A stretch of DNA of 64,000 nucleotides from the NCBI RefSeq assembly GCF_000425305.1, contig NZ_AUDE01000017.1, forward strand, positions 1-64,000. The letters are read 5' to 3'. The stretch comes from Psychroserpens burtonensis DSM 12212 (lineage in GTDB: Bacteria > Bacteroidota > Bacteroidia > Flavobacteriales > Flavobacteriaceae). The translations under genes were made by a program, and so were the position numbers. The notes under the pieces were generated by a model that made no database searches, was not told where the DNA came from, and saw only the letters and a program-made list of their open reading frames with translations. The number at the start of each line of letters is the position of its first letter. The stretch's first letter is position 1. Below are positions 1-64,000 of the stretch, in pieces.

Positions 1-2162
1 AATTGCGCAAAACCATCTGCCAATAAATCATCACAGACCTCCAATGGCGTTGGTGATGCCCCTAATTGTGGTGTTGGATTAACCTCTAGTATTAATTCTA
101 CAATCGTTGCGCAGTTAGTCGCTATCGTTGAGCTTTCTACACGCACATAAATCGTTTGTTGGTCTTCTACAATATTATTGTATGGACTCGCTAATGGGTT
201 CACATTGTTATTTGCATCTGCCATAGTCTCATGGTAACTTACCGTTAAACTGGGATCGCCTCCTGTAATTTCATTATCCATACTCCCTAAATCAAATACC
301 CCAAAACCATCACTGTCTGGATCACAATCTTCTAATGGTGGTGGCGGGTTGGCTACTACTGGTTCTGTTCCTGAGATCTCCCAAGTACAGGCGATATCAT
401 TAAAAGTTGTTGATTCCCAACATTCAAGGCCAGTTGGCTCTAATGGTTGTGTTCCTGTCACATCCCAAATACACGTTGTGTTATTAAAAGTGGTGGTTTC
501 ATAACACTCTAATGTTGGTTGACTTGGTTGTGTTCCTGTGATATCCCAACTGCAGATTGTTGTATTAAAACTAGTTGTTTCCCAACATTCAAGCCCTGTC
601 GGTTGGGCTGGCTGAGTACCTGTAACTTCCCATAAACAGGTTGCAGTATTAAATGTTGCTGTTTCCCAACATTCTAGTCCTGAAGGTTGAGTTGGCTGAG
701 TACCTGTAACTTCCCATAAACAGGTTGCAGTATTAAATGTTGCTGTTTCCCAACATTCTATTGTTGGTTGACTTGGTTGTATTCCTGTGATATCCCAACT
801 GCAGGTTGTTGCATTAAAACTTGTTATCTCCCAACACTCAAGTCCTGAAGGTTGAGTTGGCTGAGTACCTGTAACTTCCCATAAACAGGTTGCAGTATTA
901 AATGTTGCTGTTTCCCAACATTCTATTGTTGGTTGACTTGGTTGTGTTCCTGTGATATCCCAACTGCAGGTTGCAGTATTAAATGTTGCTGTTTCCCAAC
1001 ATTCTATTGTTGGTTGACTTGGTTGTGTTCCTGTGATATCCCAACTGCAGGTTGTTGTATTAAAACTTGTTATCTCCCAACACTCAAGTCCTGAAGGTTG
1101 AGTTGGCTGAGTACCTGTGATTTCCCAATCGCACGTGACATCATTAATCGTTGCTATTTCCCAACATTCTATAGCAGGTTGAGTTGGTGCTTGAGTAATA
1201 ATAATTTCAAAAACATTTGAAAACGTATTACAATCGTTATTATTCAAATTAGAAGCAAATTCTGCTACTTTAGCTCTGTAATAAATTGTTGTTGTAACAC
1301 CCGAAACAGCTAAATTCTCGTTTGTTTCACCTGGGAGATCCGACCAAGAAACAGTATCAAAACTTTCTTGCCATTGATAGAAGTGACTGCTAAATACTAC
1401 GTTATCTGGCGTCGCTGTTAATATTGTATCGTATGGTGTAGAACTACTGCATAACGCAACAGAATCAAAAGAGTCCGTATTTAGTACTTCAATAAAATCA
1501 CCGCAACTTTTGAAAGTAATATCATCTATGGCTAAATCATTACCGCATCCTCCGGCTCCATTATTAATCATTTTTAATATGACAGATGTTTGACTTGTAA
1601 TCGTTTGAAATACTAATGCGAATTGTTGCCAATTAGGGGTAAATGTGCTACCTATATTTCCAGTATCTCCGGAGGCTAATAAATTAGTATCTGTATTATC
1701 CCAAATTTCAAATTTCACATTCACCGGTATTGCTCCAGCTCCACAAAACCCTGCAGCTGGTGTTAGATTTAATATCCAAGATGAGAATTCGTAAGACGTA
1801 TTTTCACATAAACCATTGATAGTTGTTCTATAAAACTCTCCTGCTGCCGCTGCTGAATTAACAACAAGCATTCTGCCATTGGTATCATCTGGTGTATGGT
1901 CCTGAACGCTAAACCAATCAAAGTAATTCGTATTACTACTTACAGTGTATCTTCCATCAAGTGGTTCTCCACCATTAGCGTATGTATATGTAGTCGTTCC
2001 TGCTGGTAAAGGTGAATCTGAAAGACCAGTACCAAAATTTTCAACAAAAATTTGATCACCAGAATTTCCTTGACAAAATTCTAATTGAGCATAAATATTT
2101 TCCGAAGAGAAAAAAATGCTGAAAATTATAATAACTTTAAGATAAATTAAGTGTTTATTCAC
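1..2162 (-). CDS. Large secreted repeat protein, partial (5' part only)
   Basis: An open minus-strand frame of 720 codons runs from a GTG at 2160-2162 off the left edge. A stop lies two codons upstream of the GTG and no ATG precedes the signal peptide, so GTG is the only sensible start. The N-terminus is a hydrophobic signal peptide ending NIYA before QLEFC. It is followed by a roughly 190-residue beta-rich N-terminal module with paired cysteines (residues about 30-220), of the kind seen in flavobacterial type IX cargo, and an Ig/PKD-like stretch. Then come ten tandem Cys/Trp repeats and a DSDGFGVFDL-type linker with modules resembling those in the two adhesins at 11-24 kb. The C-terminus is outside the window, so a type B sorting domain is expected but not seen. 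Role inferred: cell-surface adhesin or gliding-associated protein. Confidence 0.8.
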   Translation of the reverse strand, partial: MNKHLIYLKVIIIFSIFFSSENIYAQLEFCQGNSGDQIFVENFGTGLSDSPLPAGTTTYTYANGGEPLDGRYTVSSNTNYFDWFSVQDHTPDDTNGRMLVVNSAAAAGEFYRTTINGLCENTSYEFSSWILNLTPAAGFCGAGAIPVNVKFEIWDNTDTNLLASGDTGNIGSTFTPNWQQFALVFQTITSQTSVILKMINNGAGGCGNDLAIDDITFKSCGDFIEVLNTDSFDSVALCSSSTPYDTILTATPDNVVFSSHFYQWQESFDTVSWSDLPGETNENLAVSGVTTTIYYRAKVAEFASNLNNNDCNTFSNVFEIIITQAPTQPAIECWEIATINDVTCDWEITGTQPTQPSGLECWEITSFNTTTCSWDITGTQPSQPTIECWETATFNTATCSWDITGTQPSQPTIECWETATFNTATCLWEVTGTQPTQPSGLECWEITSFNATTCSWDITGIQPSQPTIECWETATFNTATCLWEVTGTQPTQPSGLECWETATFNTATCLWEVTGTQPAQPTGLECWETTSFNTTICSWDITGTQPSQPTLECYETTTFNNTTCIWDVTGTQPLEPTGLECWESTTFNDIACTWEISGTEPVVANPPPPLEDCDPDSDGFGVFDLGSMDNEITGGDPSLTVSYHETMADANNNVNPLASPYNNIVEDQQTIYVRVESSTIATNCATIVELILEVNPTPQLGASPTPLEVCDDLLADGFAQ
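366..1190 (-). repeat. Ten tandem 27/28-residue Cys/Trp repeats
   Basis: Exactly 825 bp encode ten in-frame units of 27 or 28 residues (27,28,27,27,28,27,28,28,27,28). The unit pattern is QPxQPxxECWExxTFNxxTCxWxxTGT: two cysteines and two tryptophans per unit. The 27-residue units carry TIE or TLE and most 28-residue units SGLE or TGLE before the CWE, so two sub-types are interspersed. Several units are nearly identical at the DNA level, which points to recent expansion or gene conversion. Function is not known to me; the regular Cys pair suggests one disulphide per unit in an extended stalk. Confidence 0.9.
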
Positions 2163-2239
2163 GTTTTATAACTATTGTAAAATGCTTAAATTAAGTATAT
2201 TTATTGTAAATATTTTTAATAAACACTCTTGTATAGTTC

Positions 2240-4591
2240 ATGTATAGTTTTTTCCAATTAATAAAGCGACATAAAAAGAAATCTGTAGTGTTTGCTCTAC
2301 TATTAATTGTGTATTACTTCTGCTTACCAAGTGATTTATTTAAGGATCCTACAGCAACCGTAATTACGAGTCAAAAGAATGAACTTTTGGGAGCACAAAT
2401 TGCATCTGACGGACAATGGCGTTTCCCTCACAATGATAGTCTTCCCGATAAATTTAAAATCTGTATAGTACAATTTGAAGACGCGTATTTCTATGAACAC
2501 CCTGGTTTTAATCCCATCTCCATTTTTAAAGCACTTAAAGATAATGTGAGTTCTGGAGAAGTAAAACGTGGCGGAAGCACCATAACTCAGCAAGTCATTA
2601 GACTATCTCGAAAAGGACAAGCTAGAACCTATCTAGAAAAAGCAAAAGAAATCATTTTAGCAACGCGATTAGAATTTAGAGATTCTAAAGAAGATATTCT
2701 AGCTTATTATAGCAGTAACGCTCCATTTGGAGGCAATGTTGTTGGCCTAGATGCTGCATCTTGGCGTTATTTTAATAGAGATGCGCACCAACTCTCTTGG
2801 GCAGAAAGCGCAACATTAGCCGTTTTACCAAACGCACCAAGTTTAATTTATCCAGGCAAGAATCAAAAACGTCTTTTACAAAAACGTAATCGATTACTAA
2901 AAAAGCTCCTTGAAAATGAGATCATAGATTCATTAACGTACAATTTATCAATCGCTGAAAGTTTGCCTGAAAAACCATATGCATTACCAGAAATCGCTCC
3001 TCATTTACTTCAAAAAGTAGCGACCACTAATCGTGGAGAACGGACGCAAACAACTATTGACAGTAAACTCCAAGAACGTGCCAATTACATTGTAAAAAAC
3101 CAATACAACGTCTTCAAACAAAATGAAATCTATAATGCATCAGTTTTAGTTTTAGACGTTCACACTAGAAAAGTTCTCGCATACGTGGGAAATACACCAA
3201 CAGATAGAGCACATCAAAAAGATGTGGATATTATTGATAAGCCACGAAGTACTGGCAGTATTTTAAAACCCTTCTTGTATGCTGCTATGCTTGATGCTGG
3301 AGATTTATTACCCAACACGCTAGTGACTGATATCCCGAGTCAGTTCGGGAGTTATAATCCTGAGAATTTCAATAAAGAATATGATGGTGTTGTGCCTGCA
3401 AGTAGAGCTTTATCTCGCTCTTTAAATGTACCTGCGGTACGTATGCTTCAGAGTTTTGGACTAGATCGCTTTCATCAATATCTAAAACAACTACAACTCA
3501 AAGATTTAAAATATAATGCCAATCATTATGGGTTATCACTGATACTTGGGGGAGCAGAGAGTAACCTCTGGGATTTATGTAAAAGTTATGCATCATTATC
3601 TTCAACCTTAAATCATTTTTCTGAAACGTCTAGCGCGTATTATAGCAATGAGTTTGTCGAACCTACTTTTTTTGCTTCGGAAACGATAAACTTTGGAGAA
3701 AAGTCTACAGAAAAAACACTTTTTGATGCTGCATCCATCTACCTCACATATGAAAGTATGAAAAAAGTGAATCGCCCCCAAGGTGACGAAAGCTGGGAGT
3801 TTTTTGACGACTCTAAACAAATTGCTTGGAAAACAGGAACTAGTTTTGGATTTAGAGATGCTTGGGCCATTGGCACAACAAAAGATTATGTGGTTGGTGT
3901 TTGGGTTGGAAATGCAGATGGTGAAGGTCGTCCAGGATTAGTTGGAGTACAAACTGCAGCTCCAATTCTATTTGATGTATTTGATATTTTGCCTAATAGC
4001 GATTGGTTCGCTAAACCTTATGATGAAATGCGAGAGGTTACGATTTGTTCTAAAAGCGGTCATCGTGCATCAACAAATTGTGATATTACCGAACAAAATT
4101 ATGTCCAAAATAGCGGATTGAAAACGGAGCCATGTCCATACCATATTTTAACTCATGTTGATGCAACAGAAACATATCAAGTTAATTCCTCGTGTGAAAA
4201 TTTAAGCAATATCAAACATAAATCTTGGTTTGTATTACCGCCTTTAAAAGCACATTATTATAAGACTAAAAACCCATTTTATAAACCGCTTCCTAAACTG
4301 CGTTTAGATTGTATGGGAGAAAATCAGGTGACCATGGATTTTATTTATCCCAAGAAAAACAATGCGCTTTTTCTTCCTAAGGATTTCGATGGTAAAACCA
4401 ATGAGCTCATTCTAAAAATTACCCATTCTAAACCAGAATCTAGTGTGTATTGGTATGTAGACAAAACCTATGTAGGCACTACCAAAGACATTCACGAATT
4501 AGCTATTTTACCGAAGAAAGGAAAACACACAATAACCGTTGTAGACGATTTTGGTAATGAAGTGAAACGGTTGATTTCAATTTCAGAATAA
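2240..4591 (+). CDS. pbpC: Penicillin-binding protein 1C
   Basis: A bifunctional peptidoglycan synthase of 783 residues, close to the usual length of PBP1C. One N-terminal membrane anchor (about residues 14-30) is followed by a GT51 glycosyltransferase domain with the catalytic EDAYFYEHPGF motif (Glu80) and GGSTITQQ (111-118). The transpeptidase domain has SILK (Ser340 nucleophile, Lys343), SLN (394-396) and KTGT (531-534). The C-terminal 80 residues form the beta-sandwich typical of PBP1C. All catalytic motifs are present. In other bacteria pbpC is often paired with an alpha-2-macroglobulin gene; none is seen here, since the upstream neighbour is the divergent repeat-protein gene. Confidence 0.95.
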   Translation: MYSFFQLIKRHKKKSVVFALLLIVYYFCLPSDLFKDPTATVITSQKNELLGAQIASDGQWRFPHNDSLPDKFKICIVQFEDAYFYEHPGFNPISIFKALKDNVSSGEVKRGGSTITQQVIRLSRKGQARTYLEKAKEIILATRLEFRDSKEDILAYYSSNAPFGGNVVGLDAASWRYFNRDAHQLSWAESATLAVLPNAPSLIYPGKNQKRLLQKRNRLLKKLLENEIIDSLTYNLSIAESLPEKPYALPEIAPHLLQKVATTNRGERTQTTIDSKLQERANYIVKNQYNVFKQNEIYNASVLVLDVHTRKVLAYVGNTPTDRAHQKDVDIIDKPRSTGSILKPFLYAAMLDAGDLLPNTLVTDIPSQFGSYNPENFNKEYDGVVPASRALSRSLNVPAVRMLQSFGLDRFHQYLKQLQLKDLKYNANHYGLSLILGGAESNLWDLCKSYASLSSTLNHFSETSSAYYSNEFVEPTFFASETINFGEKSTEKTLFDAASIYLTYESMKKVNRPQGDESWEFFDDSKQIAWKTGTSFGFRDAWAIGTTKDYVVGVWVGNADGEGRPGLVGVQTAAPILFDVFDILPNSDWFAKPYDEMREVTICSKSGHRASTNCDITEQNYVQNSGLKTEPCPYHILTHVDATETYQVNSSCENLSNIKHKSWFVLPPLKAHYYKTKNPFYKPLPKLRLDCMGENQVTMDFIYPKKNNALFLPKDFDGKTNELILKITHSKPESSVYWYVDKTYVGTTKDIHELAILPKKGKHTITVVDDFGNEVKRLISISE

Positions 4592-5146: not shown

Positions 5147-6214
5147 TTACTCCTTAACTTCTTTAATTAAGTAAACATAGACAGGGAAGTGATCACTAAA
5201 ACCTCCAGTAAAGCCACTAGAGAAACTTCTAAATGGGTAGCCTTTATAACGACCTCTTTTATTTGTCAAATATTGTTTATTATAAATACCTGCTTTGTAA
5301 AATCTAAATGACGTATAATCATCTTTTTTTATCAACTCTTTAGTGAACATGATTTGATCAAACAAACTCCAAGCATCTCTATAGGCTGTTGTCCCATAAC
5401 CGCTCTTTTTAAACATATCCTCGTAAGGATTATATATATCCTTCAAATCAACATCTTCTTTATCACTTTTTGCATTTAAAACATCCTTTACACTTTCATT
5501 AGTTGGATCATCATTTAAATCTCCCATAATAAAAATCTTTGCATAAGGATCTTTAACCTGTAAAGAATCTTTGATGTGTTTACTTACTTTTGCAGCAGCA
5601 ACACGTTTTGGTCTACTCCTTGCTTCGCCTCCACTTCTCGACGGCCAATGGTTAACTATGACATGAATAAGATCACCATCCAACTCACCAGTTACTAATA
5701 ATTGATCTCTTGTTTGTGTGCGCTTTCTTGTTTTATCGTCATAAATTTTAACCTCATAAGACCCGTGACTTATTGGTTTAAAAAGGTCTTTTTGATACAA
5801 TAAAGCAACATCAATTCCTCTGGCATCTGGAGAATCATAATGAATAATCCCATAATCTTTAGCCAATAAAAGAGGATCGTTAACAAGATCCACTAATACT
5901 TGCCTGTTTTCTACTTCACAGACACCAATAATAGCAGGTGTGTTACCTGTTACATCTGCACCAATATCTGCAATAACACGCGCCATATTCTTTACTTTTT
6001 TAACATAAATCGCCTCTCTATCTGCCTTGATTTCCATTATTGGACTTTTCTCATCAAACTTAGTGGTGTCATTAATAGTATCAAATAAATTTTCTAAATT
6101 ATAGAAGGCTACCGTGTGAATTTTGAATCGTTTTTCTTGTTTCTCACCCTGGGAAAAACCAGTAAATGTGATTAGAAAACAAATTAATATTAATGAAAAA
6201 TATTTTAGTCTCAT
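5147..6214 (-). CDS. Secreted endonuclease/exonuclease/phosphatase family protein
   Basis: 355 residues with a signal peptide (1-21, ending GFSQ). The EEP (DNase I-like) fold motifs are all visible: FYNLENLFD (37-45), CEVEN with the metal-binding Glu100, GIDVALLY (133-140), NHWPSR with catalytic His189 (188-193), GDLNDDP (231-237) and a C-terminal SDHFPVY. The family cleaves phosphodiesters in nucleic acids or small phosphoesters; the substrate cannot be read from sequence. The signal peptide places it in the periplasm or outside. It is divergent from a TonB receptor plus DUF5689 lipoprotein, a frequent grouping that suggests uptake of nucleic-acid-derived or phosphoester nutrients (inference). 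A paralogue without a signal peptide lies at 24669-25634. Confidence 0.9.
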   Translation of the reverse strand: MRLKYFSLILICFLITFTGFSQGEKQEKRFKIHTVAFYNLENLFDTINDTTKFDEKSPIMEIKADREAIYVKKVKNMARVIADIGADVTGNTPAIIGVCEVENRQVLVDLVNDPLLLAKDYGIIHYDSPDARGIDVALLYQKDLFKPISHGSYEVKIYDDKTRKRTQTRDQLLVTGELDGDLIHVIVNHWPSRSGGEARSRPKRVAAAKVSKHIKDSLQVKDPYAKIFIMGDLNDDPTNESVKDVLNAKSDKEDVDLKDIYNPYEDMFKKSGYGTTAYRDAWSLFDQIMFTKELIKKDDYTSFRFYKAGIYNKQYLTNKRGRYKGYPFRSFSSGFTGGFSDHFPVYVYLIKEVKE

Positions 6215-6351: not shown

Positions 6352-9201
6352 ATGAAAAAAAGTTTTTTAATTTTATTATTTGGGGTGTTCTCCGTGCTCA
6401 CATCATTTGCACAGGATACTATCATAAAAGGTAGCGTGCTTGATGGGACTACTGGTGAACCAATTCCTGATGTTACTGTTACCATTGAAGAAACTGCCCA
6501 GGTTGTGCGAACAGATGCCAATGGTGAGTTTCAATTCCCTGGTATTATCCCTTTGGGAGAACAGGTTTTAAAAATTGAGAAAATAGATTACGAAACCAAG
6601 CGTTATCCTATCGTTGTCAACGAAGGTAAAACTGTAGACATTAGTGGTATGACACTAGACTATGATTCAAGTGACAAAAAAGATTTATTCATTATTTCAA
6701 TTTCTGATGATAATTTAAATAGCGAAGATGACGGTCTTACAGATAACATCTCTGGCCTACTGCAAGCCTCTAGAGACGTGTTCTTAAATGCAGCTGCTTT
6801 TGATTTTAGCGCAACATTTTTTAGACCTAGAGGTTTAGATAATGCGAACGGTAAGATTCTTATCAATGGTATTGAAATGAACAAACAATTTAGTGGTCGA
6901 CCACAATGGGGAAATTGGGGTGGACTAAATGATATTCAACGAAACCAAGAATTTACTATGGGTATGTCTGCAAACGACTACACCTTCGGTGATTTGGCAG
7001 GATCAAATAACATTATAATGAGAGCCTCTAAATACAGAAAAGGAGGAAGAATTTCTTTCGCATCTGCTAATAGAAGTTATACAGGACGCGTTATGGCAAG
7101 TTATAATTCCGGAATACTTGAAGGTGGCTGGTCTTATTCTATTTTAGCATCTCGTCGTTATGGAGATGAAGGCTTTGTAGATGGTACATTATATGACTCT
7201 AATTCTTTCTTTGCAGCTGTTGAAAAAAAGATTAACGAAAAACACAGTATTAACTTTACCAGCATTTATGCTCAAAATAGAAGAGGACGTTCTACAGCAA
7301 TCACTCAAGAAGTATTTAATTTAAAGGGGAATACATACAATCCACTTTGGGGAGAACAAGATGGTGAAATTAGAAACTCTAGAGTTAGAGAAATTAATGA
7401 ACCAATTTTAATGTTAAACCACTTTTGGGACATCTCATCAAAAATTAAACTTAATACCAATGTCGCCTATCAATTTGGTACAATTGGAAACACTAGAGTA
7501 GATAATGGTGGAACACGACTAGTCGATTTTAATGGGCAAAACTCATACATTGGTGGTGCAAGGAATCCAGATCCAGCATATTATCAAAATCTACCTAGCT
7601 ATCACTTACGTTTTCCCAACTTAAGTCCTTACAACTATCAACAAGCTTATTTGGCAGAACAAGATTTTAGAAATGATGGTCAATTTGATTGGAACGCCTT
7701 GTATCTTGGAAATGACATTGCAAGAAATCAAGGTGGAAACTCTATTTATGCTATTCAAGAAGATAGAAATGATGATTCTCAATTTAGTATTAATACCATA
7801 TTAGACACTGACCTATCCGATCGTATTAGATTAAACGCAAACCTAAGCTACCGAAATCTTAAAAGTGAAAACTTTGCAGAGCTAAAAGATCTTTTAGGCG
7901 GTACCGGATTTTTAGACGTTGATTTCTTTGCTGAGGAAACCGTAGGAGGAACCCCTGTGTCATTAGAAGATTTAGCGCAAAGTGATACAAACAACCCAAA
8001 TAGAATTGTACAAGAAGGCGATCGTTATAAATATAATTATGACATAAATGCAGATGTCATTAGCGCATTTGCTCAAGCGCAGTTTAAATATAATAAAGTA
8101 GATTTCTATATTGGTGCTAATTTTTCACAAACATCGTATCAAAGAAATGGACTTTACGAAAATGGAAACTTCCTAAACAATTCATTTGGAAAAGGTGAAA
8201 AACTTGATTTTTCAAATTATGGTGTTAAAGCAGGAGCAACTTACAAGGTAACAGGACGTCATTTAATAGACGTGAATACAAGTTATTTTACGAAAGCGCC
8301 AACAATACGAAACTCATATAGCAACGCGAGACAAAATAACAACACTGTTACTGGTCTTGAAAGCGAAAGTGCACAAGCCATAGATCTAAGTTACATTTAT
8401 AGAAGCCCAATTGTAAAAGCAAGACTAACCGCTTTCTATTCTGGATTTGAAAACGGTACAGATGTAGGTTTTTATTTTACTGAAGATTTAGCAGGATTAG
8501 GAATTGATAATGGTGACGCCTTTGTACAAGAAGTCACCACTAATATTGGAAGACGTAATATTGGAGCAGAATTAGGAATTGAAGCTCAAATAACACCTAC
8601 TATTAAATTAAAAGGAGCTGCTTCTTTTGGTCAATACACCTTTTCAAACAATCCAAACTTATATTTAACTAGTGATAACTTTGATGGAGAAGTTCGTTTT
8701 GGAGATGGAACAACTAATTTAAAAGACTTACATGTTGCTGGAGGTCCAGAGCGCGCATACCAAATAGGATTTGAATATCGTGATCCAGATTATTGGTGGG
8801 TTGGAGCAACTTCAAACTTTTTCTCAAATGCTTATGTAGATGCGAGTGGCTTAAGACGATCTGCTAATTTTACAACAGATTATGACGGTCAACCCATCGT
8901 AGGTTATGATGATGATATCGCAAGAGGCTTATTAAAGCAGGAGCAATTTGATGATTATATGTTAGTAAATATTATAGGTGGTAAATCGTGGAGAATTGAC
9001 GGGTACTATTTAGGATTTTTCGCAACCATAAATAATGTATTTAATGAATCTTTTAGAACAGGAGGATTTGAGCAATCAAGGTTAGGAACTTATGATCGTG
9101 TTTTAGAAGATACTTCTCGACCTAATGGAGAAGTTTTTGGTTCTCGTTATTTCTTCGGAAATGGGACAACTTACTACTTAAACGTATATGTTAGATTTTA
9201 A
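6352..9201 (+). CDS. TonB-dependent receptor with carboxypeptidase-regulatory domain
   Basis: 949 residues. A signal peptide (about 1-20, ending TSFAQ) is followed by a carboxypeptidase regulatory-like domain (about 24-108, with GSVLDGTTGEPIPDV), a plug domain (about 115-235, containing RPRGLDN and ILINGIEMN) and a long beta-barrel ending in an aromatic residue (YVRF), as expected for an outer-membrane barrel. It imports large or scarce substrates through the outer membrane using TonB energy. The next gene, 48 bp downstream, encodes a surface lipoprotein that may act as its capture partner, in the manner of SusC/SusD pairs although it is not a SusD homologue. The divergent EEP gene suggests a nucleic-acid or phosphoester-derived substrate (inference). 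Confidence 0.9.
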   Translation: MKKSFLILLFGVFSVLTSFAQDTIIKGSVLDGTTGEPIPDVTVTIEETAQVVRTDANGEFQFPGIIPLGEQVLKIEKIDYETKRYPIVVNEGKTVDISGMTLDYDSSDKKDLFIISISDDNLNSEDDGLTDNISGLLQASRDVFLNAAAFDFSATFFRPRGLDNANGKILINGIEMNKQFSGRPQWGNWGGLNDIQRNQEFTMGMSANDYTFGDLAGSNNIIMRASKYRKGGRISFASANRSYTGRVMASYNSGILEGGWSYSILASRRYGDEGFVDGTLYDSNSFFAAVEKKINEKHSINFTSIYAQNRRGRSTAITQEVFNLKGNTYNPLWGEQDGEIRNSRVREINEPILMLNHFWDISSKIKLNTNVAYQFGTIGNTRVDNGGTRLVDFNGQNSYIGGARNPDPAYYQNLPSYHLRFPNLSPYNYQQAYLAEQDFRNDGQFDWNALYLGNDIARNQGGNSIYAIQEDRNDDSQFSINTILDTDLSDRIRLNANLSYRNLKSENFAELKDLLGGTGFLDVDFFAEETVGGTPVSLEDLAQSDTNNPNRIVQEGDRYKYNYDINADVISAFAQAQFKYNKVDFYIGANFSQTSYQRNGLYENGNFLNNSFGKGEKLDFSNYGVKAGATYKVTGRHLIDVNTSYFTKAPTIRNSYSNARQNNNTVTGLESESAQAIDLSYIYRSPIVKARLTAFYSGFENGTDVGFYFTEDLAGLGIDNGDAFVQEVTTNIGRRNIGAELGIEAQITPTIKLKGAASFGQYTFSNNPNLYLTSDNFDGEVRFGDGTTNLKDLHVAGGPERAYQIGFEYRDPDYWWVGATSNFFSNAYVDASGLRRSANFTTDYDGQPIVGYDDDIARGLLKQEQFDDYMLVNIIGGKSWRIDGYYLGFFATINNVFNESFRTGGFEQSRLGTYDRVLEDTSRPNGEVFGSRYFFGNGTTYYLNVYVRF

Positions 9202-9249: not shown

Positions 9250-10674
9250 ATGAAAACAATGAATTTAAACAAAATTTTACTACTTCTTATAAGTTTAGTA
9301 GTATTCAGTGCCTGCGTGCAAGACGATGACTTTAAAACACCAAATGTAACCATAGTAGAACCAACATTAGATGGTCCTGTAGTAACTATGAGTTCAGTAG
9401 CTGGACAAGTAGCACAATCTGGAGGATTACACCTCTTTGATTTTGATGGTGCAAGTAATTACATGGAAGGCTATGTAATCTCCACAGATGAAGGTGGAAA
9501 TTGGTTTGAGGAACTAATTATTCAAGATAAATTAGAAAACCCAACTGTAGGTATCAAAATTCTACTTGATGTAAATCCATTATTTACAAAATATGATATA
9601 GGTAGAAAAATATATGTAAGACTTCAAGGTTTGAGTGTTGGCGATATTGATGGTGTACTGACAATGGGTATCATCTCAAACATAGGTAATGCGGAAAAAA
9701 TTCCTGCTTTTTCAGAAGAAGAAACTATTAAAAGATCTTCAGAATCTGGAACAGTAGTGCCACTAACTCTTACATTCAACGAATTTTCAAATGACAAAAC
9801 CAACTTATTTGTTAAGTTAGAGGATGTACAGTTTAATAGAGATGAGGTTTTAGGAGCTGATCCTAAAACATTCGCTTCAGAAATGTCTGATAGTTTTGAT
9901 GGTGAACGTTTGTTAGAAAGTTGCACTACAGAAGGTAGTGTTATTTTTAGCACGAGTACTTTTGCCGATTTTAAATCTTTAAATTTACCTACAACACGTG
10001 TATCTATGAATGTGATTTTATCAAAAAACTTCTTTGGTGATGCATTTAATGTCGTAGTTAACTCTCCAGAAGACATTACGTTTTCAAGTTCTGAAAGGTG
10101 TGATCCAATTGAATTAGAATGTGGACTAGCAGCAACAACTGGAACCAATAATTTATTTGAGGATGATTTTGAAGGACAATCTACAAACTCATTAATTTCT
10201 GGGAACGGTTGGACAAATTTCATCGAAGCAGGATCTGAAGGTTGGGAAGCATTTACCGCTGGAGGAACAAATGCTTCGCAAGGAGTCTCTGCTAGGGTTG
10301 GATCGTTTAATTCTGGTGATGTAAGTACTATTGCTTGGTTAATTACACCACAAATTGATTTAGATACAAATGCAGGAGCAACATTAAACTTTGAAACCTC
10401 TAGTAGTTTCTCAGATGGTAGTGAAATGGAGATTGTATTCTCAAATGACTGGGATGGCACTGAAGCTGGAGTAACATCTGCAACTTGGGGACTTGTTTCA
10501 GACGCTTATGTAACTCAAGACAGTGATTTCTTTGGAGATTGGTTTGAATCTGGTAATGTAGACTTATCGTGTGGCTCAGGTCAAATATATATCGCTTTCA
10601 AATATATTGGTAGTGGTCAATCTGATTTTGACGGAACTTACGAATTAGACTTTGTGAGTATAGACGCTCAGTAA
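9250..10674 (+). CDS. DUF5689 surface lipoprotein with choice-of-anchor J domain
   Basis: 474 residues. The N-terminus is a lipoprotein signal peptide with Cys22 (FSAC). The residues after the cysteine (VQDDD) are acidic, like the surface-export signal known for Bacteroidota lipoproteins, so exposure on the cell surface is likely. A DUF5689 region (about 50-265) has an OB-like beta-rich character. A second domain (about 300-474) has the FEDDFEGQ and ITPQIDLD features of choice-of-anchor J/MAM-like jelly rolls. It is probably co-transcribed with the TonB receptor 48 bp upstream and may deliver ligand to it. The binding partner is unknown. Confidence 0.8.
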   Translation: MKTMNLNKILLLLISLVVFSACVQDDDFKTPNVTIVEPTLDGPVVTMSSVAGQVAQSGGLHLFDFDGASNYMEGYVISTDEGGNWFEELIIQDKLENPTVGIKILLDVNPLFTKYDIGRKIYVRLQGLSVGDIDGVLTMGIISNIGNAEKIPAFSEEETIKRSSESGTVVPLTLTFNEFSNDKTNLFVKLEDVQFNRDEVLGADPKTFASEMSDSFDGERLLESCTTEGSVIFSTSTFADFKSLNLPTTRVSMNVILSKNFFGDAFNVVVNSPEDITFSSSERCDPIELECGLAATTGTNNLFEDDFEGQSTNSLISGNGWTNFIEAGSEGWEAFTAGGTNASQGVSARVGSFNSGDVSTIAWLITPQIDLDTNAGATLNFETSSSFSDGSEMEIVFSNDWDGTEAGVTSATWGLVSDAYVTQDSDFFGDWFESGNVDLSCGSGQIYIAFKYIGSGQSDFDGTYELDFVSIDAQ

Positions 10675-11203: not shown

Positions 11204-14200
11204 TTAGTTTTCTCTTTGAATATAAACCCAGCCTGTTTCACTTTCTTTATCCTCAAATTCTACGGAGTAGAAATAGGTGCCAACAGGTAATTCATCTCCT
11301 TTATCTGATTGTCCAAACCATTCATCAACATAATTGTTTTTTTGATAAACAGATGAACCATATCTATTGAAGATTTCTAATCTCGTCACTCTAAAGTTAC
11401 TTAAATCGAAACTGTCATTTAATCCATCTCCATTTGGAGAAATCCCTTGCGGAATGAAACAGCTTTCTAGTTGAATAACTTCTTGTGATTGAGAGGACGT
11501 ACAACCCGTATCATTAAAAGAAATTTCAATCGTATAAATACCTCCTTCTAATACAGGAAGTGTTAAACCATTTTCTCCTGTAATTAGTTCTGGCGTTGCA
11601 CTCGCATCAAAAGCATAAAACCAACTAATTGATACTTGAGTCGTATCATAGTTTACCGGCGTAGCCTCTAAGATAATTGGCACTGTTGCCCCAGGACAAA
11701 CTTCATAATCAAAGTCCTCTGTAAACGTTGTTTCTGGTTTAGTACCTAGTACTAAATTAAAACTATTCGTTACAAAACAATCTATATAGTCAATAGATTC
11801 TAATCTAACATATATCGTTTCTCCTGAGCTGTCGTATAGTGACATCAATGGACTTATTCCTAAATCTGCATCTGCCTGTGTCGCATAATACGTTACTATA
11901 AATTGTGAAGCATCTAAACCATCAAGGACTAATACATCATGAGCCTCTAAATCAAACTCTCCCACTCCATCATTATCATTATCACATCCAATAATCTCAA
12001 CACTTGCTGCTGCAAATGATGGTTGGGAAGTTAGTAGACTAAATGTTGTAGTATTGAAACAACCGGTCACATTATTCTCTACTCTTGCATAGATTATCTG
12101 AGGATCGGATACATTAGAATAAGTTAATGCTAGTGGATTGGCATCGTTGTTAGCGTCGTCTTCTGTTTCATGATATGTTAATGTAAAATCAACTGGACTT
12201 TGTCCAGCTAAAACTTCATCATTATTAACGTTTAAGTCAAAAATAGCAAACCCCGTTGTTGAGCATTCTACAATATCAGCAGGCATGTTTGCAATTGGTA
12301 ATTGTAAAAACTCTATAATAATTTCATCCTCTATAATACAAGACGGTGAAAATATAATTTGGGTTGTATACGTACCATCTTCGGTAACAAGTAACGTATT
12401 AGTAGTTTCTCCAGGAATTTGGAAACCATCTTTGAACCATACATGAGCCACAGATGGTGCTTGTGTTTCCAAAATAATCTCCTCTCCAATACAAACTGCA
12501 GTTCCAGCATCAACTGTGATGTCTACTCCTAATTCAACCTCACCAATATCAAAACTTCCAGCTTTTAAGAATACCCCAGAATCTAATGCGGTATCACTTG
12601 CATCTGCGATCACTAATTTGATACTATATGTTGAACCTATATTTACTGGAGCAGATGCTGTAAACACTGTCGTTCTGCCATCAAAAGAAATTGGCGGTAA
12701 GTTTGGAGGTATATATCCACCGAAAAACTCTTCGTTTATTGCAGGACATCCAGGATTTTCTGGATGAATATTAGTCACTAAAATTGGTGTAGTCGTTCCT
12801 GGAAGTACCGCTAGATTAGTTGTAACCCCAAACTCATCAGTTAATAAAAAAGCAAAGGCATCTGAGAATGTACATTCAAAAGTACCTCCTGTGGATCCAT
12901 TATATTCTTCCGAAGCCATTAAGAAATCAAAACTAATTTCATCAGTTAAAGGCACGAAGTCAAACTCTATTATAGACGCATTATTAGAATTAATTCCAAC
13001 TGCAGCATCTAATTCAAGATCTCCAGCCCACGCAAAACCACCATCACTCATTGCATTAAAGTTAGGACCTCCAGCTAGTGCTGCATTCCCTGATGTTAGC
13101 AGAATCCCCTCTTCAAACGGGAAACTTCCTTCATCTGAAGAAAAGTAGCCTATACCATTGACATCTCCAAAATCTGATCCAGTAGATGATGTGATATTAG
13201 TAATTTGAGCACATGGACTATTTATTAAAATATCGGTTACTAACTCCTCAACTGTATAAGTTGTTTGATCGACCGATACATTTCCAGAACCCGGTCTTAT
13301 GCATAAGTCAAAAGTGTAATCTACACCTTCACTACCCGCAGAAAACACTCTTACAAAGTAAGTGTTACCAACCGTTAATGATGTCGTAAGACTTGCGTCA
13401 GCATCAGAACAATACAATTCTATAGGCGTATCACAAGCTCCTTCATAAAGGGCGTGATCTAAATTCTGAAAGAATCCTCCACCATCTATATTAGTTAATT
13501 GAATAATTTGAAATTCATTTAGTGCAGTAAATTCAAACCAAACGTCATCATCTGGATCACCTCCACACGTTCCATCTACAATTCCAGAATCTGTAGCTTC
13601 CAATAACGTTCCTGATGTAAAAACATCACAACTATCATCTGCATTAACTACAGCGACAGTTGCATTACACGGATTATCATTAACTGGAGGACAGGCTTCT
13701 AATCGAATAGCAGAACTGTTAATGACGCAGTTAACATCTTGATTATTGCTTAAAGTAATTACAACATCAGTAGCAAAAGGAAATGGTCCAACTTGGTACA
13801 CCCCTATTGCTGTTGCAGATATCGTATTTGCATCCATATTATTAGAAATAGTAAGCGATGTAGCATCTCCTAGTGATGTTACATTTACATCTACTAAAAA
13901 CTGATCTCCATTGGCACAATCATCAATAATTTGATAAGTAGCAGCAGGATTAATACAAGTTGCACAAGCAACAGTAAAGTCTATACCGTCAGTAAATGAA
14001 CCAGAGTCACAACTCACAGAACCATCTGAGAGCACTTGAATTGTAATTGTATCGGTAATAGATTGGAAGGTTAGACCAGAAATATCTCCGTTATCTCCTT
14101 CATCATTATATAATACTGTACCATCACCATCTGTTATCAATAAGAAATCGAAGGGAGCTCCTTCTATTTCACCTTGATTAATAGTTAAATTAAGTAATGA

Positions 14201-39930: not shown

Positions 39931-40716
39931 TTATAAGTGTGTAAATTCGATTAAATGCTTAATTAAGTAAGATAATTCCGATTTATTTTCAATATAACTC
40001 ATATGACCATATGATAATTCTTTATATTGAATATCTGTGTCTTCAATTTCACTTATAATGAGTTCTCCGTCAATAACAGGATCTTTTTTTCCAATAATGA
40101 TAAGTTTATGAGCGTCTAAATTCTTAAAAAAATCAAACTTATCTTTTCTTAAAAGCATCCCTTCTTGACCTGCGATATAGCCTTGTGGTACCGTTTTTAA
40201 AGCCTCATCTATTGCCTTGTCAATATCCTTTCTATGAGTTACTCTACTTTCCGAAGAAAATAAATTTGCTACAGACATCCTTACCATACTTTCAAAATTA
40301 GTCTGAATCATTATATTCGCTCTCTTACGCAATGCCTTGCGCTCTTCATCATCTGCGTGATAGGTAGAATTCATAAGACATACACATAAAATAGCCTTTG
40401 GGTTTTTCTCCGCAATAGCTAGAGCCACATATCCACCCATGGAGTGTCCAATTAAACTATATGTTTTAAGTTTTAAATGATCCAATACTGCTAATGCAGC
40501 ATCTCCCATGTCTGTCATCGTATGACTGTAGCCCAAACAATCTGTTTGACCATGTCCTAACAAATCAATACAAATAACTCTTTTGTTTTTTACAAATAGA
40601 GGCTTAATATCCTTCCACATTGTTGAGTTAGCTAAAAAGCCGTGCAATAAAATGATAGCGTCACCTTGACCTTCATCTTCATAATAAACAGGAACCCCCT
40701 TATACTGTAAAACCAT
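39931..40716 (-). CDS. Alpha/beta hydrolase
   Basis: 261 residues with a complete catalytic layout: oxyanion region LLHGFLANSTMW, nucleophile elbow GHSMGG (Ser92), acid in GKKDPVID and catalytic His238 in YGHMSYIE. No signal peptide, so cytoplasmic. The substrate cannot be read from sequence; related proteins include esterases and C-C hydrolases. It has its own promoter box and is divergent from the serine hydrolase gene. Confidence 0.9.
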   Translation of the reverse strand: MVLQYKGVPVYYEDEGQGDAIILLHGFLANSTMWKDIKPLFVKNKRVICIDLLGHGQTDCLGYSHTMTDMGDAALAVLDHLKLKTYSLIGHSMGGYVALAIAEKNPKAILCVCLMNSTYHADDEERKALRKRANIMIQTNFESMVRMSVANLFSSESRVTHRKDIDKAIDEALKTVPQGYIAGQEGMLLRKDKFDFFKNLDAHKLIIIGKKDPVIDGELIISEIEDTDIQYKELSYGHMSYIENKSELSYLIKHLIEFTHL

Positions 40717-49898: not shown

Positions 49899-50445
49899 AG
49901 TATTAGCACTATTTTAAGTACAAACGATCATTGGTCCTATGGTTTCTTCGGAAATATAAGAACATCTACGTTTAGTAATTATGAGTTTTTTTGGAGATTA
50001 ACACCCGCTATAGCGTGTAGTTTTTTTAAGTATCAAAAATCGGCTAAGAAGCAATTAATTATATCCAGTGTTCTTCTGTATTTGGAGAGGATAAAGAACC
50101 CCTATTTCAACACTCCGTTCAATTGTAAGGAAGCATCCGTCAAGAATGCGGGGGAACTTAATTTGGGAACGTCATTCAATCAGTATTTATACGATACTAA
50201 ATAATTTAGACTTTTTGTAAGGGTAAATATTCATGTTTTTAAAAGCTTAAATTTTTAATGTCAGCGGAAATTACAGAATAACTAGAGGCCAAATAAATCT
50301 TCCAGCAGGCGATGTATCCTTAGAAGAATTGCTACTCCAACAGCAACAATTACAAACGGGATATAACTATTTTATGAGTGTCGGTTTTAGTTGTCAATTT
50401 GGTTCCATTTACAATTCTATTGTAAACTTGAGATTCAACTTTTAA
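49899..50445 (+). pseudogene. Decayed outer-membrane barrel protein, C-terminal remnant
   Basis: Between the VPS10-like gene and sdhC, two pieces of one barrel protein are readable. The first (49899 to about 50203) gives GFFGNIRTSTFSNYEFFWRL and GELNLGTSFNQYLYDT and ends in a stop. The second, in another frame (about 50257-50445), gives VSGNYRITRGQINLPAGDVS, SLEELLLQQQQLQTGYNYF and a barrel-like end FGSIYNSIVNLRFNF. At least one frameshift and several stops separate them, and no N-terminus is present. A degraded outer-membrane barrel is the best reading; the family is not certain. The 650-bp gap otherwise holds only the sdhC promoter. Confidence 0.8.
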
Positions 50446-54079: not shown

Positions 54080-55852
54080 ATGGACCATTCAATAACATTT
54101 TATAAAAACCAATTAGAAAAGCATATCATAAAAGTTAGTACACTTAAAAAGCAACTCCTAACGTATAGCTTGTTACGTTTAATAACCTTTCTAGTTACAG
54201 GATTTGCAATTTATATAGTACTACCCAATTGGCAAACTGCTATAGCTACTGGTGTTTTAGGAATAGCAATTTTTATTTTTCTATTGTCAAAATACACCAA
54301 TAAAAAAGCGAAACGAGAACTCCATAAATCCTTAGTGACTATTAATGAAGAAGAATTAAAAATAGCTTCTGGTGATTTTCATCATAGACAGTCCGGCGAG
54401 CAATTTCAAGATCCACTACATTTTTATAGTTTGGATATTGATCTCTTCGGAAAAGGATCCTTTTTTCAGTATATCAATAGGACTAGTTCTTCGGAAAGTG
54501 AATCGCAACTTGCAAACGCATTAAAAGCAAATAACGTTTCTGATATTGAAAACAGACAAGAAGCCATCAACGAATTATCACACAAAACGGAATGGACTCA
54601 ACTTTACACCGCAACAGCACGCCTCATAAAAACGGAAACTCCGGCACACACAGTAATAAATTGGCTTAAGACTCACAAAACATTTATTCCAAAACCGATG
54701 CTTTTCGCTACTTGGTTATTTGCATCCATATCTGTAATCTTACTAGGCTTGGCAATCTTGAAAGTCTTAGGAATTAGCTATTTTGGATACTGGATTTTCG
54801 CCGGTTTAGGTATAACAGGAATCTACTTTAAAAAAGTTAATATATTAGCTCTAAATGCAGATAAAACGAAAGAGACTTTTAGACAATATGCCTCCTTATT
54901 ATTACAAATAGAAAACGCGACATTTACATCAAAGGTTTTACAAAGCAAGCAGCAACAAATTAATTCTGAGAACACAAAAGCTTCACAAATTTTCGCTGAA
55001 TTTTCCAAATGCTTAGATGCCCTAGACAACAGAAATAATCTATTTGGCGCCATATTGGGCAACGGCTATTTACTACTAGACATCAGAAACGCATATAGAG
55101 TAGAACACTGGATTTCTAATTACGCCGATAAGGTTGACGACTGGTTTCAGATGGTCTCCTTCTTTGACGCTTATAATAGTTTAGGCAATTATGCATTTAA
55201 TCATCAAACACATACCTATCCTGAGATTTCCAAAGAAAATGTTGTCATTGACGCTAAAGGCTTAGGGCATCCTTTATTGGACAAAACGAAACGAATTAAC
55301 AGCGACCTTAACATACATAATCAAGAGTTCTTTATTGTTACAGGAGCCAACATGGCGGGAAAGAGTACCTTTCTACGTACCGTATCCTTACATATTGTTA
55401 TGGCTAATGTTGGGTTACCCGTTTGTGCAACATCAAGTATTTACTCTCCAGTAAAACTAATTACAAGCATGCGTACTAGTGATTCTTTAACAGATGACAG
55501 TAGTTACTTCTTTTCAGAATTAACCCGCTTAAAATTTATAGTTGACGCTATAGATAAAGAACCATATTTTATTATTCTAGATGAAATATTAAAAGGTACT
55601 AACAGCACAGATAAAGCTATTGGCTCAAGAAAGTTTGTGGAGAAATTAGTCGCAGGAAACGCTACAGGTATTATTGCCACCCACGATTTGAGTCTGTGTG
55701 AAATATCCCAAGAACTCAACGAAGTAAAAAACTACTACTTTGATGCCGAAATCGTTAACGACGAGCTCTATTTTGATTATAAATTTAAAAAAGGTATTTG
55801 TCAAAATATGAATGCCAGTTTTCTATTAAAAAAGATGAAGATTGTGGATTAA
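54080..55852 (+). CDS. Membrane-anchored MutS-like ATPase
   Basis: 590 residues from the ATG at 54080. A longer frame starts at 54044 inside the sdh terminator and is rejected. The C-terminal third is a MutS-family ATPase: Walker A GANMAGKST (422-430), SYFFSELTRLK, Walker B YFIILDEILKGTNS and ATHDLSL. Two pairs of hydrophobic helices (about 27-75 and 205-255) lie upstream. The N-terminal mismatch-recognition domain with its Phe-x-Glu motif is absent. Such proteins are usually labelled MutS in Bacteroidota, but a role in mismatch repair is unlikely given the membrane helices. Actual function unknown. Confidence 0.88.
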   Translation: MDHSITFYKNQLEKHIIKVSTLKKQLLTYSLLRLITFLVTGFAIYIVLPNWQTAIATGVLGIAIFIFLLSKYTNKKAKRELHKSLVTINEEELKIASGDFHHRQSGEQFQDPLHFYSLDIDLFGKGSFFQYINRTSSSESESQLANALKANNVSDIENRQEAINELSHKTEWTQLYTATARLIKTETPAHTVINWLKTHKTFIPKPMLFATWLFASISVILLGLAILKVLGISYFGYWIFAGLGITGIYFKKVNILALNADKTKETFRQYASLLLQIENATFTSKVLQSKQQQINSENTKASQIFAEFSKCLDALDNRNNLFGAILGNGYLLLDIRNAYRVEHWISNYADKVDDWFQMVSFFDAYNSLGNYAFNHQTHTYPEISKENVVIDAKGLGHPLLDKTKRINSDLNIHNQEFFIVTGANMAGKSTFLRTVSLHIVMANVGLPVCATSSIYSPVKLITSMRTSDSLTDDSSYFFSELTRLKFIVDAIDKEPYFIILDEILKGTNSTDKAIGSRKFVEKLVAGNATGIIATHDLSLCEISQELNEVKNYYFDAEIVNDELYFDYKFKKGICQNMNASFLLKKMKIVD

Positions 55853-61585: not shown

Positions 61586-62098
61586 ATGAAGACCTTGAAA
61601 AACATATTGGCTATTGCATTAATTTCAACATCACTAGTTGCCTGTAAAAGTGATAAAGAACCAGAAGTGAAAACTGTTGAAATTACTTCTGAAATCAATA
61701 CAAATGCAGCTAAAAAATTAAATCCCAATGCCACTTATGCCAAGGCAGAATTTGGTATTGAAGGTATGACTTGTGCAATGGGTTGCGCTAAGACTATTGA
61801 AAAGAAAATTGCTAAAATGGATGGTGTGAAATCTGCAAAAGTAGATTTTGAGAAAGAATTAGCAATGGTAGAGTACGACGAAGCTATGGTAACTCCAAAT
61901 ACATTGGAAGAAGCTGTTGCAAAAGCAGGAGATACTTACAAAGTAAAAAACATGCGTACCGTAAAAGATTTTTCTTCGGAAAAGCATGAATGCGAAGCAG
62001 ATTGCTCTAAAGCTTGCTGTACAGATAAAGCAAAAGACGCTAAAAAAATGGCTTGTGCAGACGATTGTAAAAAAGACTGTTGCGCTAAGAAAATCTAG
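61586..62098 (+). CDS. Lipoprotein with HMA metal-binding domain and Cys-rich tail
   Basis: 170 residues from the ATG at 61586, which gives a clean lipoprotein signal with Cys20 (SLVAC). An HMA-like domain (about 51-120) carries EGMTCAMGC, with Cys63 and Cys67 spaced C-x3-C instead of the usual C-x2-C. The last 40 residues hold eight cysteines in CEADCSKACC and CADDCKKDCC blocks. The likely role is copper or another soft-metal binding in the periplasm or at the outer membrane. No ATPase or regulator is adjacent. Confidence 0.88.
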   Translation: MKTLKNILAIALISTSLVACKSDKEPEVKTVEITSEINTNAAKKLNPNATYAKAEFGIEGMTCAMGCAKTIEKKIAKMDGVKSAKVDFEKELAMVEYDEAMVTPNTLEEAVAKAGDTYKVKNMRTVKDFSSEKHECEADCSKACCTDKAKDAKKMACADDCKKDCCAKKI

Positions 62099-62117
62099 TA
62101 AGTCTTCAAAATAATTA

Positions 62118-62640: not shown

Positions 62641-62671
62641 CTTTAGTTCCCCTAAAAACGGGAATCTCTTA

Positions 62672-63277
62672 TTAATTTAACTCGTGTTTGTTTATTTGTC
62701 TGATATGATATTTTCCGAAGAAAATCAAAGCTAAAATTGCACCAATCGTTGCATAAAACATATCAGATTGCGTATCCCAAATATACCCTTGAGTTCCTAA
62801 AAAAGAATCTCCCCCTTCACCTGTTAAAAGCGACACTACCCATTCTATAAACTCATAGGTCACACTTATTGCCATGGCAATACATACGACAACGAAATTG
62901 AGCCAACTATTAGACTGCACAACTTTTTTGCGAAATAATAATTCTCTTGTAATCATTGCCGGCACAAAACCTTGCGCAAAGTGACCTATCTTATCATAAT
63001 TATTTCTGGATTGATTAAAAGCCTCTTGAATCCAATCAAATAATGGGACTTCTGCATAAGTATAGTGACCACCTATAATAAGAATTGTACAATGGAGAAA
63101 AATAAGTACATATACAAAATTTGTAAATCTAAATTTTTTAAAGGTAATGACAAGAACCACGACACCGATTATAGCTGGTAAAACCTCTAAAAACCATGTA
63201 AAATAGTCGTAAGGATTTATAGCAGACCATACTAATAATAAAAAAGTAAATCCTAAAAGTGTTTGTATAAGTTTCAT
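62672..63277 (-). CDS. DUF2238 (YjdF-like) membrane protein
   Basis: 201 residues with about six membrane helices. Conserved polar residues typical of the family lie in HYTYAEVPLFDW, NYDKIGHFAQGFVPA, TYEFIEWVVSL and YIWDTQSDMFYATIG. Function is not established. It has a promoter box overlapping that of the divergent dinB and is probably co-transcribed with the CYTH gene. Confidence 0.9.
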   Translation of the reverse strand: MKLIQTLLGFTFLLLVWSAINPYDYFTWFLEVLPAIIGVVVLVITFKKFRFTNFVYVLIFLHCTILIIGGHYTYAEVPLFDWIQEAFNQSRNNYDKIGHFAQGFVPAMITRELLFRKKVVQSNSWLNFVVVCIAMAISVTYEFIEWVVSLLTGEGGDSFLGTQGYIWDTQSDMFYATIGAILALIFFGKYHIRQINKHELN

Positions 63278-63297
63278 AAATGAAGCGTCAATTAAAT

Positions 63298-63316: not shown

Positions 63317-63320
63317 CTTT

Positions 63321-64000
63321 ATGCTAAATGATTTACCAATTAGAAAGATTATTCATGTGGATATGGACGCGTTTTACGCCTCTGTAGCGCAGCTTGACAA
63401 TCCAGAACTTAGAGGTAAGGCCATTGCAGTTGGTGGCGGTGGTGCAAGGGGTGTCATTAGCGCTGCAAGTTATGAAGCACGAAAATTTGGTGTAAAAAGC
63501 GCAATGTCTGGACGATTAGCGATAAAGCTATGTCCAGAACTCATATTTGTAAAGACAAATTTTGATCGCTATAATGAGATTTCTAAAAAAGTACGACACA
63601 TATTTCATGACTACACAGATCTTGTTGAACCCTTATCCCTTGACGAAGCTTATCTTGATGTTACTGCGAATAAAAAAGGCAACCCAAGTGCTTCATTATT
63701 AGCTCAAGAGATTAGAAACCGGATTTCTACTGAGGTAGGCTTAACAGCCTCTGCGGGAATTTCTATTAACAAGTTTATTGCTAAAGTAGCTAGCGATTAT
63801 AACAAACCCAACGGACAAAAAACAGTTAATCCAGAGGAAGTACTTCAGTTCTTAGAAGATTTAGACATCAGGAAATTTTATGGTGTTGGTAAAGTGACGG
63901 CCGAAAAAATGTACCAAAAAGGGATTTTTACTGGTCAAGATTTAAAAGGAAAATCATTAGAATATCTAGAGGACCACTTCGGAAAGTCAGGTAGCTACTA
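63321..64000 (+). CDS. dinB: DNA polymerase IV, partial (3' end outside window)
   Basis: The first 226 codons are present of an expected length around 350-365. Y-family motifs are clear: HVDMDAFYASVAQLDNPELR (catalytic Asp14), PLSLDEAYLDV (Asp108, Glu109), and the helix-hairpin-helix region RKFYGVGKVTAEKM. DinB carries out translesion synthesis. The start ATG at 63321 follows a promoter box by 4 bp. Confidence 0.97.
   Translation, partial: MLNDLPIRKIIHVDMDAFYASVAQLDNPELRGKAIAVGGGGARGVISAASYEARKFGVKSAMSGRLAIKLCPELIFVKTNFDRYNEISKKVRHIFHDYTDLVEPLSLDEAYLDVTANKKGNPSASLLAQEIRNRISTEVGLTASAGISINKFIAKVASDYNKPNGQKTVNPEEVLQFLEDLDIRKFYGVGKVTAEKMYQKGIFTGQDLKGKSLEYLEDHFGKSGSY

Follow-up and report, generated by a model that had tools for sequence, protein, structure and literature searches.

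We describe here an octamer, CTTCGGAA, that is scattered over both strands of a 64,000-nucleotide stretch of the Psychroserpens burtonensis DSM 12212 genome (contig NZ_AUDE01000017.1, positions 1 to 64,000; the whole stretch is referred to below as the window), and we propose that this word probably forms the core of a signal for DNA uptake, spread by preferential import and recombination. There are 20 exact copies in the window, 12 in forward and 8 in reverse orientation. The initial annotation of this DNA had counted 19; each of the positions it gave is an exact copy, although the total was one short, as the plus-strand copy at 42554–42561 had been overlooked. Among the functions that it considered for the word, an uptake sequence is the best supported.

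The word is far more abundant than shuffled or modelled sequences allow. In 100 dinucleotide-preserving shuffles of the window the mean number of copies is 1.06 and the maximum 5, and under an order-2 model CTTCGGAA tops all 8-mers of the window for over-representation (20 copies against 0.8 expected). An order-6 Markov model, which had been proposed as a check, is less helpful: it expects 18.5 copies in the window and so does not reveal the excess, because the excess is already present in two 7-mers contained in the word. Counting over the whole genome (3,976,448 bases in 68 contigs), also proposed at the outset, gives 551 + 509 = 1060 copies, whereas the word read backwards, our control throughout the genome counts, has 173; the number is therefore not near expectation. 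Enrichment over model expectation in this genome is about tenfold or more. Contig C1 of the same genome appeared to contain a stretch with copies on the plus strand only, which proved to be an artefact of a listing that favoured forward matches; of the copies on the full contig, 57 are forward and 68 reverse.

Sixteen of the 20 window copies are situated in closed open reading frames (ORFs) of at least 100 aa and a further two (2100 and 63977) in ORFs truncated at the window ends. The initial description of nearly all sites as coding thus holds for 18 copies, while those at 32628 and 49946 fall outside the listed ORFs. Coding constraint had been judged a poor explanation for the excess, and shuffling of synonymous codons agrees: over 349 kb of contig C1 (50 runs) the shuffled sequences have a mean of 6.1 and a maximum of 10 copies, whereas 108 are found in the coding DNA. 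Similar differences between copies seen and copies expected are obtained for the window (16 vs 0.94), for the congener used as comparison genome for the window sites, G008 (206 vs 10.7), and for three further genomes, G299 (135 vs 13), G262 (136 vs 22) and G034 (57 vs 5), and the enrichment is not explained by Ser-Glu and Phe-Gly codon pairs.

The word has no orientation bias with respect to either genes or replication. In samples of five genomes, on which the gene-strand and spacing statistics given here and below are based, 341 copies are sense and 317 antisense with respect to genes (p 0.37), and the window alone has 14 sense and 4 antisense copies when the two cut ORFs are counted. Known uptake sequences are also reported to form close inverted pairs; here, neighbouring copies no more than 100 bases apart are inverted in 35 cases and on the same strand in 23. 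The initial annotation had asked for strand bias relative to the replication origin and terminus, and none is seen in 20 evenly spaced 20-kb stretches from each of two single-contig genomes, G262 (dnaA at 415) and G008 (dnaA at 1,520,668): with the terminus assumed to lie opposite dnaA, 88 of 164 and 127 of 245 copies respectively are on the leading strand, or 215 of 409 when pooled, and no origin-to-terminus trend is visible in these samples. Known uptake sequences are likewise reported to have no orientation bias (PMC1626085).

The extended word in this genus is about TTTTTT-CTNCGGAA-A, with variants in other genera, which follows from the flank profile, the tolerance of the third base and the variants themselves. 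Across the 125 sites of contig C1 the six upstream positions are 62 to 81% T and the first downstream base is 63% A, with the remaining flanking positions near-uninformative, so that the T-rich upstream flank remarked on initially is confirmed in this genome. Tolerance at the third base is evident in G008 (400 kb, 245 perfect copies), where CTACGGAA is found 62 times (5.7 expected) and CTGCGGAA 80 times (5.2 expected), CTCCGGAA being only mildly raised (10, with 3.5 expected). Most of the 47 occurrences of CTTCCGAA (6.3 expected) are CTTCGGAAG read in reverse, and the remaining variants are closer to expectation. Uptake sequences are expected to have more perfect than singly mismatched copies; in G008 each of the 24 single variants, at 2 to 80 copies, is rarer than the perfect word, but together they come to 411 (222 expected), more than the 245 perfect copies, largely through third-position variants. 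CTTCAGAA is also enriched in G299 and G262.

Comparison with G008 indicates that the sites are kept more often than control octamers. The window and the syntenic part of G008 are 78.7% identical in alignment, and 18 of the 20 window sites can be aligned, of which 10 are identical and four are one base off (one of them CTACGGAA and one CTTCAGAA), as against 107 identical among 765 composition-matched control octamers. In the reverse direction, 10 of the 32 alignable G008 sites of that region are present in the window. A second set of 23 gene pairs behaves similarly, with six of eight sites kept compared with 32 of 233 control octamers. All eight aligned window sites that are not shared are without a gap in G008 in this pairwise comparison, made without an outgroup, and are therefore as expected for origin by point change rather than insertion.

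Matches to Pfam and NCBIfam bear flavobacterial marks (the type IX sorting domain, PorP/SprF and the SUF genes), and it is among Flavobacteriaceae that the word is abundant. All 23 genomes of the genus, this one included, exceed the reversed control, by 1.1 to 18-fold, with 278 to 2174 copies each. Across the family (299 genomes) the ratio of the word to its reversed control has a median of 0.7 and a maximum of 10.9; 37 of the genomes, from 26 genera, reach a ratio of 2, four of these with fewer than 250 copies and a low control. The richest genomes thus have 10 to 18 times the control whereas most Flavobacteriaceae are at background, and the top count among family genomes is 2678 copies, in G299. 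We extended the counts to the order (246 genomes) and the phylum (296), sets that each contain family members; the largest count beyond the family is 497 against a control of 267 (G537, whose own family, f5, is mildly enriched in several members). Strong enrichment is therefore found, among the genomes sampled, only in scattered Flavobacteriaceae. Several named loci for the transporter considered below are rich in copies, namely those of Altibacter HG106 (14 in 22.9 kb), Psychroserpens SPM9 (10), Flavobacteriaceae UBA3611 (8), Arcticiflavibacter luteus (7) and P. algicola (6), while 38 of the 80 loci counted have no copy, the samples being small.

The window itself contains a candidate for the uptake machinery. 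The gene at 6352..9201 (plus strand) encodes a predicted outer-membrane transporter of 949 aa with a CarboxypepD_reg domain (Pfam) and a predicted TonB-dependent-receptor fold (structure model, Foldseek), and we take its product, a proposed DNA import channel, to be the counterpart of Riemerella RA0C_RS04915; the correspondence rests on domain content, adjacency and a distribution table in PMC8459023 rather than on alignment. Adjoining it at 9250..10674 (plus strand) is the gene for a DUF5689 lipoprotein of 474 aa (Pfam, with DUF5017 below the cut-off), the lipobox-like Cys22 of which is invariant in 21 aligned sequences, and which, as a proposed surface DNA-binding partner, we likewise take to be the counterpart of RA0C_RS04920. 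Both Riemerella genes are essential for natural transformation (PMC8459023), and a tonBA mutant of R. anatipestifer shows reduced transformation (PMC8383284). The closest named relatives of the transporter are mostly from Psychroserpens (79 to 83% identical), followed by Winogradskyella, which suggests a source in Psychroserpens or a neighbouring genus. Sequence searches with the transporter and the DUF5689 protein against solved structures gave no match. Weak Foldseek matches of the DUF5689 N-terminal model to 5z7d and 8aaj, suggestive of an OB-fold DNA-binding likeness, are absent from the VIA-align list, which is filled by the C-terminal adhesin/MAM-like domain of the DUF5689 model, and were not used. 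On the minus strand beside the pair, at 5147..6214, is a gene for an Exo_endo_phos_3 nuclease that may be linked to it; a second nuclease of this family is found in the window at 24669-25634.

Both genes of the pair are present in all 67 genomes with examined loci, which had been chosen for one of the two genes. The transporter is matched in 278 of the 299 family genomes, or 265 when 13 weak matches (E 1e-42 to 1e-21) are counted as absent. Enrichment of the word of at least 1.5-fold is seen in 47 of the 265 genomes with the transporter and in two of the 34 without it (p 0.09), and when only genomes at least 90% complete are considered the figures are 42 of 231 and none of 20 (Fisher p 0.03), kinship being ignored in both tests. 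ComEC, which is encoded on contig C17 of the window's own genome, is present in 49 of 52 genomes tested and absent from G052, G120 and the incomplete, word-rich G223. Within one genus, G052 lacks both transporter and ComEC and has 91 copies of the word, while G277 has both and 516 copies; both retain PF12705 (AddAB-type) proteins. In one 20-kb stretch from each, G052 has no copy; of the five in G277, three can be aligned and none of these is kept.

On a tree of the transporter from 48 genomes the word-rich label requires six changes, as against 16.4 in shuffles, with none of 500 shuffles as low; on the DUF5689 tree it requires nine, as against 16.2. A role for DUF5689 as the sole reader of the word was considered and is not supported, word-rich genomes having very divergent versions and the label clustering more weakly on its tree (nine changes compared with six). 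The transporter and DUF5689 protein of G084 (L196) group with those of genus g28 and not with those of its congener G299 (L195), all of these being word-rich, and to judge from the protein sequences this suggests transfer of the locus in G084.

A plausible scheme for the uptake signal is that the DUF5689 surface protein and the TonB-type transporter would bind or import word-bearing DNA preferentially, after which ComEC, DprA and RecA would act, ComEC in passage of the DNA and RecA in its recombination. Recombination with imported fragments from relatives would overwrite resident alleles, and each transformation would thus favour point mutations that create the word; such a drive would multiply the word, which would accumulate wherever the protein sequence tolerates it. 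More tentatively, and with somewhat less than even confidence, we propose that this is a third independent origin of sequence-specific uptake, in Bacteroidota and without type IV pili, in which a TonB-powered transporter and DUF5689 import kin DNA tagged by TTTTTT-CTNCGGAA-A and in which the genera that share the word exchange DNA, the import locus included. A 2006 statement has uptake sequences known only in Pasteurellaceae and Neisseriaceae (PMC1626085). Riemerella columbina favours its own DNA in competition, and the k-mers given there as candidates are all A/T-rich (PMC7965970). Among the literature matches listed, neither CTTCGGAA nor any defined uptake sequence of Flavobacteriaceae is described.

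Bacterial choice over the origin of imported DNA is nowhere clearer than in uptake sequences. If confirmed, the present word would be the first in Bacteroidota as far as our literature searches show, and would be tied to a TonB-type import route. Sequence-specific uptake would then have evolved again with different machinery, the own-DNA preference of Riemerella columbina could be accounted for, and one octamer together with two genes would provide a handle for transforming marine flavobacteria.

Several observations weigh against an uptake signal. Even spacing and a preference for non-coding DNA are reported habits of known uptake sequences, and in the five-genome samples neither is seen: copies are spaced at random (Kolmogorov–Smirnov p 0.29 to 0.90), and intergenic copies number 103 with about 95 expected. 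Partly for this reason we regard CTTCGGAA as a candidate and do not class it as a proven uptake sequence of the kind of the uptake signal sequences (USS) of Pasteurellaceae and the DNA uptake sequences (DUS) of Neisseriaceae, although it behaves as such a sequence would in the majority of respects tested. The competence gene pair does not predict the word, as 218 of the 265 genomes with the transporter are not enriched, and in the set of genomes at least 90% complete the association weakens at a 2-fold threshold (31 of 231 vs none of 20, p 0.15, kinship again ignored). G223 is very word-rich and lacks both transporter and ComEC, though it is only 68% complete. G052 and G277 are a single diverged pair, far enough apart that 7.8 of 20 kb align, at 73%, and the clustering of word-rich genomes on the transporter tree may be a mere echo of the species tree. 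In G002, which is word-rich (1520 copies), the DUF5689 protein has only 33% identity, so that this protein does not simply read the word. The upstream T flank, strong in this genus, amounts to three T in G262, mainly one T in G299 and is nearly absent in G034. Of 55 similar codon pairs compared in G000 and G008, 29 are retained, and part of the conservation of CTTCGGAA is therefore protein constraint. A search for substitute words in nine word-poor or moderate genomes revealed no clear dialect; in G139 (L166-L169) there is a weak one, CTGCGGAT, that resembles the word (23 copies vs 2.5 in 80 kb, about six of them in near-identical repeats). Finally, no uptake experiment on these bacteria was found among the literature matches listed.

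The main rival to an uptake signal is a Chi-like site, an option raised initially that still stands, in which AddAB would read the octamer during double-strand-break repair and switch from degradation to recombination, the word being selected genome-wide; we consider it unlikely. A density of about 0.27 per kb is near that of Chi in E. coli, and AddAB-type proteins with PF12705 (frames of about 920 and 1055 aa) are found in all 52 genomes tested, 48 of which have two matches; AddA/AddB-type genes are also situated on the window's own contig (C12:82455-88410), about 20 kb past the window. However, these proteins are no less frequent in the word-poor genomes tested, G052 included, and occur in all 10 of the genus genomes tested (of 23), while copy number varies eightfold within the genus. 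About 75% of Chi sites in E. coli are on the leading strand, and such bias is common among Chi sites but not universal; the near-even leading-strand share of CTTCGGAA in G262 and G008 therefore weakens a Chi-like role, although no such bias is required of a word with balanced composition. The conserved one-sided flank would also be unusual for Chi.

Another genome-wide motif of the kind of HIP1 (highly iterated palindrome 1), maintained by a modification enzyme, by biased repair or by a binding protein, comes next and is in our view improbable. The random spacing of CTTCGGAA and its lack of preference for non-coding DNA are consistent with such a motif, and there is precedent within the family in an unrelated word, GCTTTCGCGAA, which with its palindrome is massively enriched in four of the 299 genomes. 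Nothing specific favours it, however, and CTTCGGAA is non-palindromic with a one-sided flank whereas HIP1 is a palindrome.

A UUCG-tetraloop hairpin (TTC-TTCG-GAA) in RNA or DNA, also among the initial options, is very unlikely. The tolerant position does correspond to the N of UNCG, the upstream T flank is complementary to AAA, and there is a slight excess of pairing at -5/+10 (232 vs 212.1, with 48 of 1000 shuffles as high, five column pairs being tested). But both flanking T-A pairs are present in only 283 of 761 occurrences of CTTCGG then AA, two compensated pairs are seen in 40 cases with 43.3 expected, and there is no excess at -3/+8 (323 vs 322.2) or -4/+9 (211 vs 229.8), so that stem covariation is lacking, and the copies have no sense-strand bias (341 sense, 317 antisense). 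A KOPS-like chromosome segregation site (FtsK orienting polar sequence), which the initial annotation had raised as well, has a copy number within range and can practically be dismissed given the even leading-strand shares and the lack of a visible origin-terminus trend in the G008 and G262 samples. The chance that the word is a by-product of coding, through Ser-Glu and Phe-Gly codon pairs, is negligible, since for all that 18 of 20 window copies lie within open frames, synonymous shuffles fall far short of the copies seen, here and in samples of four other genomes, and copies occur on both strands, in several frames and between genes at the expected share.

The individual window copies compare with G008 as follows. 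Those common to G008 are at 2100..2107 (minus strand, in the ORF running off the window start), 3675..3682 (plus, sense, Ala-Ser-Glu in a penicillin-binding protein gene), 33686..33693 (plus, antisense in a SufB/SufD-type gene), 40249..40256 (minus, sense), 42832..42839 and 43516..43523 (both plus, sense), 49642..49649 (minus, antisense), 54445..54452 and 54489..54496 (both plus and sense, reading Phe-Gly and Ser-Glu respectively in the same MutS domain V gene) and 63977..63984 (plus, sense, Phe-Gly, in the ORF running off the window end). One mismatch is found in G008 at 9153..9160 (plus, sense, Phe-Gly, within the transporter gene), 12908..12915 (minus, sense), 32628..32635 (minus, outside the listed ORFs, with CTTCAGAA in G008) and 61974..61981 (plus, sense, where G008 has CTACGGAA), and two mismatches at the previously overlooked 42554..42561 (sense, Phe-Gly). 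The copies at 20515..20522 (minus, sense), 29776..29783 (plus, antisense) and 41615..41622 (minus, antisense) are not kept, and 49946..49953 (plus, outside the listed ORFs) and 62713..62720 (minus, sense, Phe-Gly) are unaligned to G008. Elsewhere in the window, at 360-1188, a large minus-strand open frame carries tandem repeats with a period of about 84 bases (and multiples), giving Thr/Trp/Cys-rich protein repeats.

Other repeated words were encountered in these genomes. In the congener G006, ACACGTTG was considered as a dialect and set aside, as it belongs to the attC-like sites of an integron array; attC-like repeats built around it form arrays at L162-L165, and dense runs of ACACGTTG are also present in G001 (C14:140-186 kb and C1:3-18 kb), which suggests large chromosomal integrons in this genus. 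TTCGCGAAAGC, considered similarly in G263 and G211, is part of a 16-base palindrome, CGCTTTCGCGAAAGCG, and is a different kind of word. The palindrome has roughly 500 to 1000 copies in each of the genomes G263, G032, G211 and G227 (four of 299), in which GCTTTCGCGAA has both-strand counts of 998 to 1983; its outer bases are 86 to 97% conserved in G263 and less so in G211, and its core is present in named Nonlabens and Dokdonia loci (L265, L268, L269, L242, L246, L251). In G108, G236 and G099 the palindrome copies listed are concentrated in stretches of 11 to 41 kb, a pattern suggestive of transferred islands. There was no match for GCTTTCGCGAAAGC in the literature searched. The G262 samples (L041-L060) have a second repeated word around CAAAAATGGCATT, with 55 copies of CAAAAATGGC in 400 kb where 3.2 are expected, and in G299 (L027-L036) a unit close to GTGAGCA forms a short tandem array, with 12-mers such as CTCACTGCTCAC in 12 copies each.

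Set beside known systems, CTTCGGAA resembles the USS of Pasteurellaceae in being a short word on both strands, with a strong core and an AT-rich flank, present in hundreds to thousands of copies, patchy among relatives and consistent with point change and not insertion. It differs from USS in its sequence, in the side of its flank, in its density (0.27 to 0.7 per kb compared with about 1 for USS), in its random spacing and lack of preference for non-coding DNA, in its candidate machinery, and in that its preference in uptake is putative. Chi, read by RecBCD or AddAB, is similar as an enriched octamer with near 1000 copies, but CTTCGGAA has no replication-strand bias and is patchy among relatives that have AddAB-type genes. 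With HIP1 of cyanobacteria it shares the character of a very abundant short word in coding DNA, HIP1 being palindromic and CTTCGGAA not. The likeness to the DUS of Neisseriaceae lies in a family-wide build-up with species differences; DUS is read by a minor pilin, ComP, whereas for CTTCGGAA the candidates are a TonB-type transporter and its DUF5689 partner.

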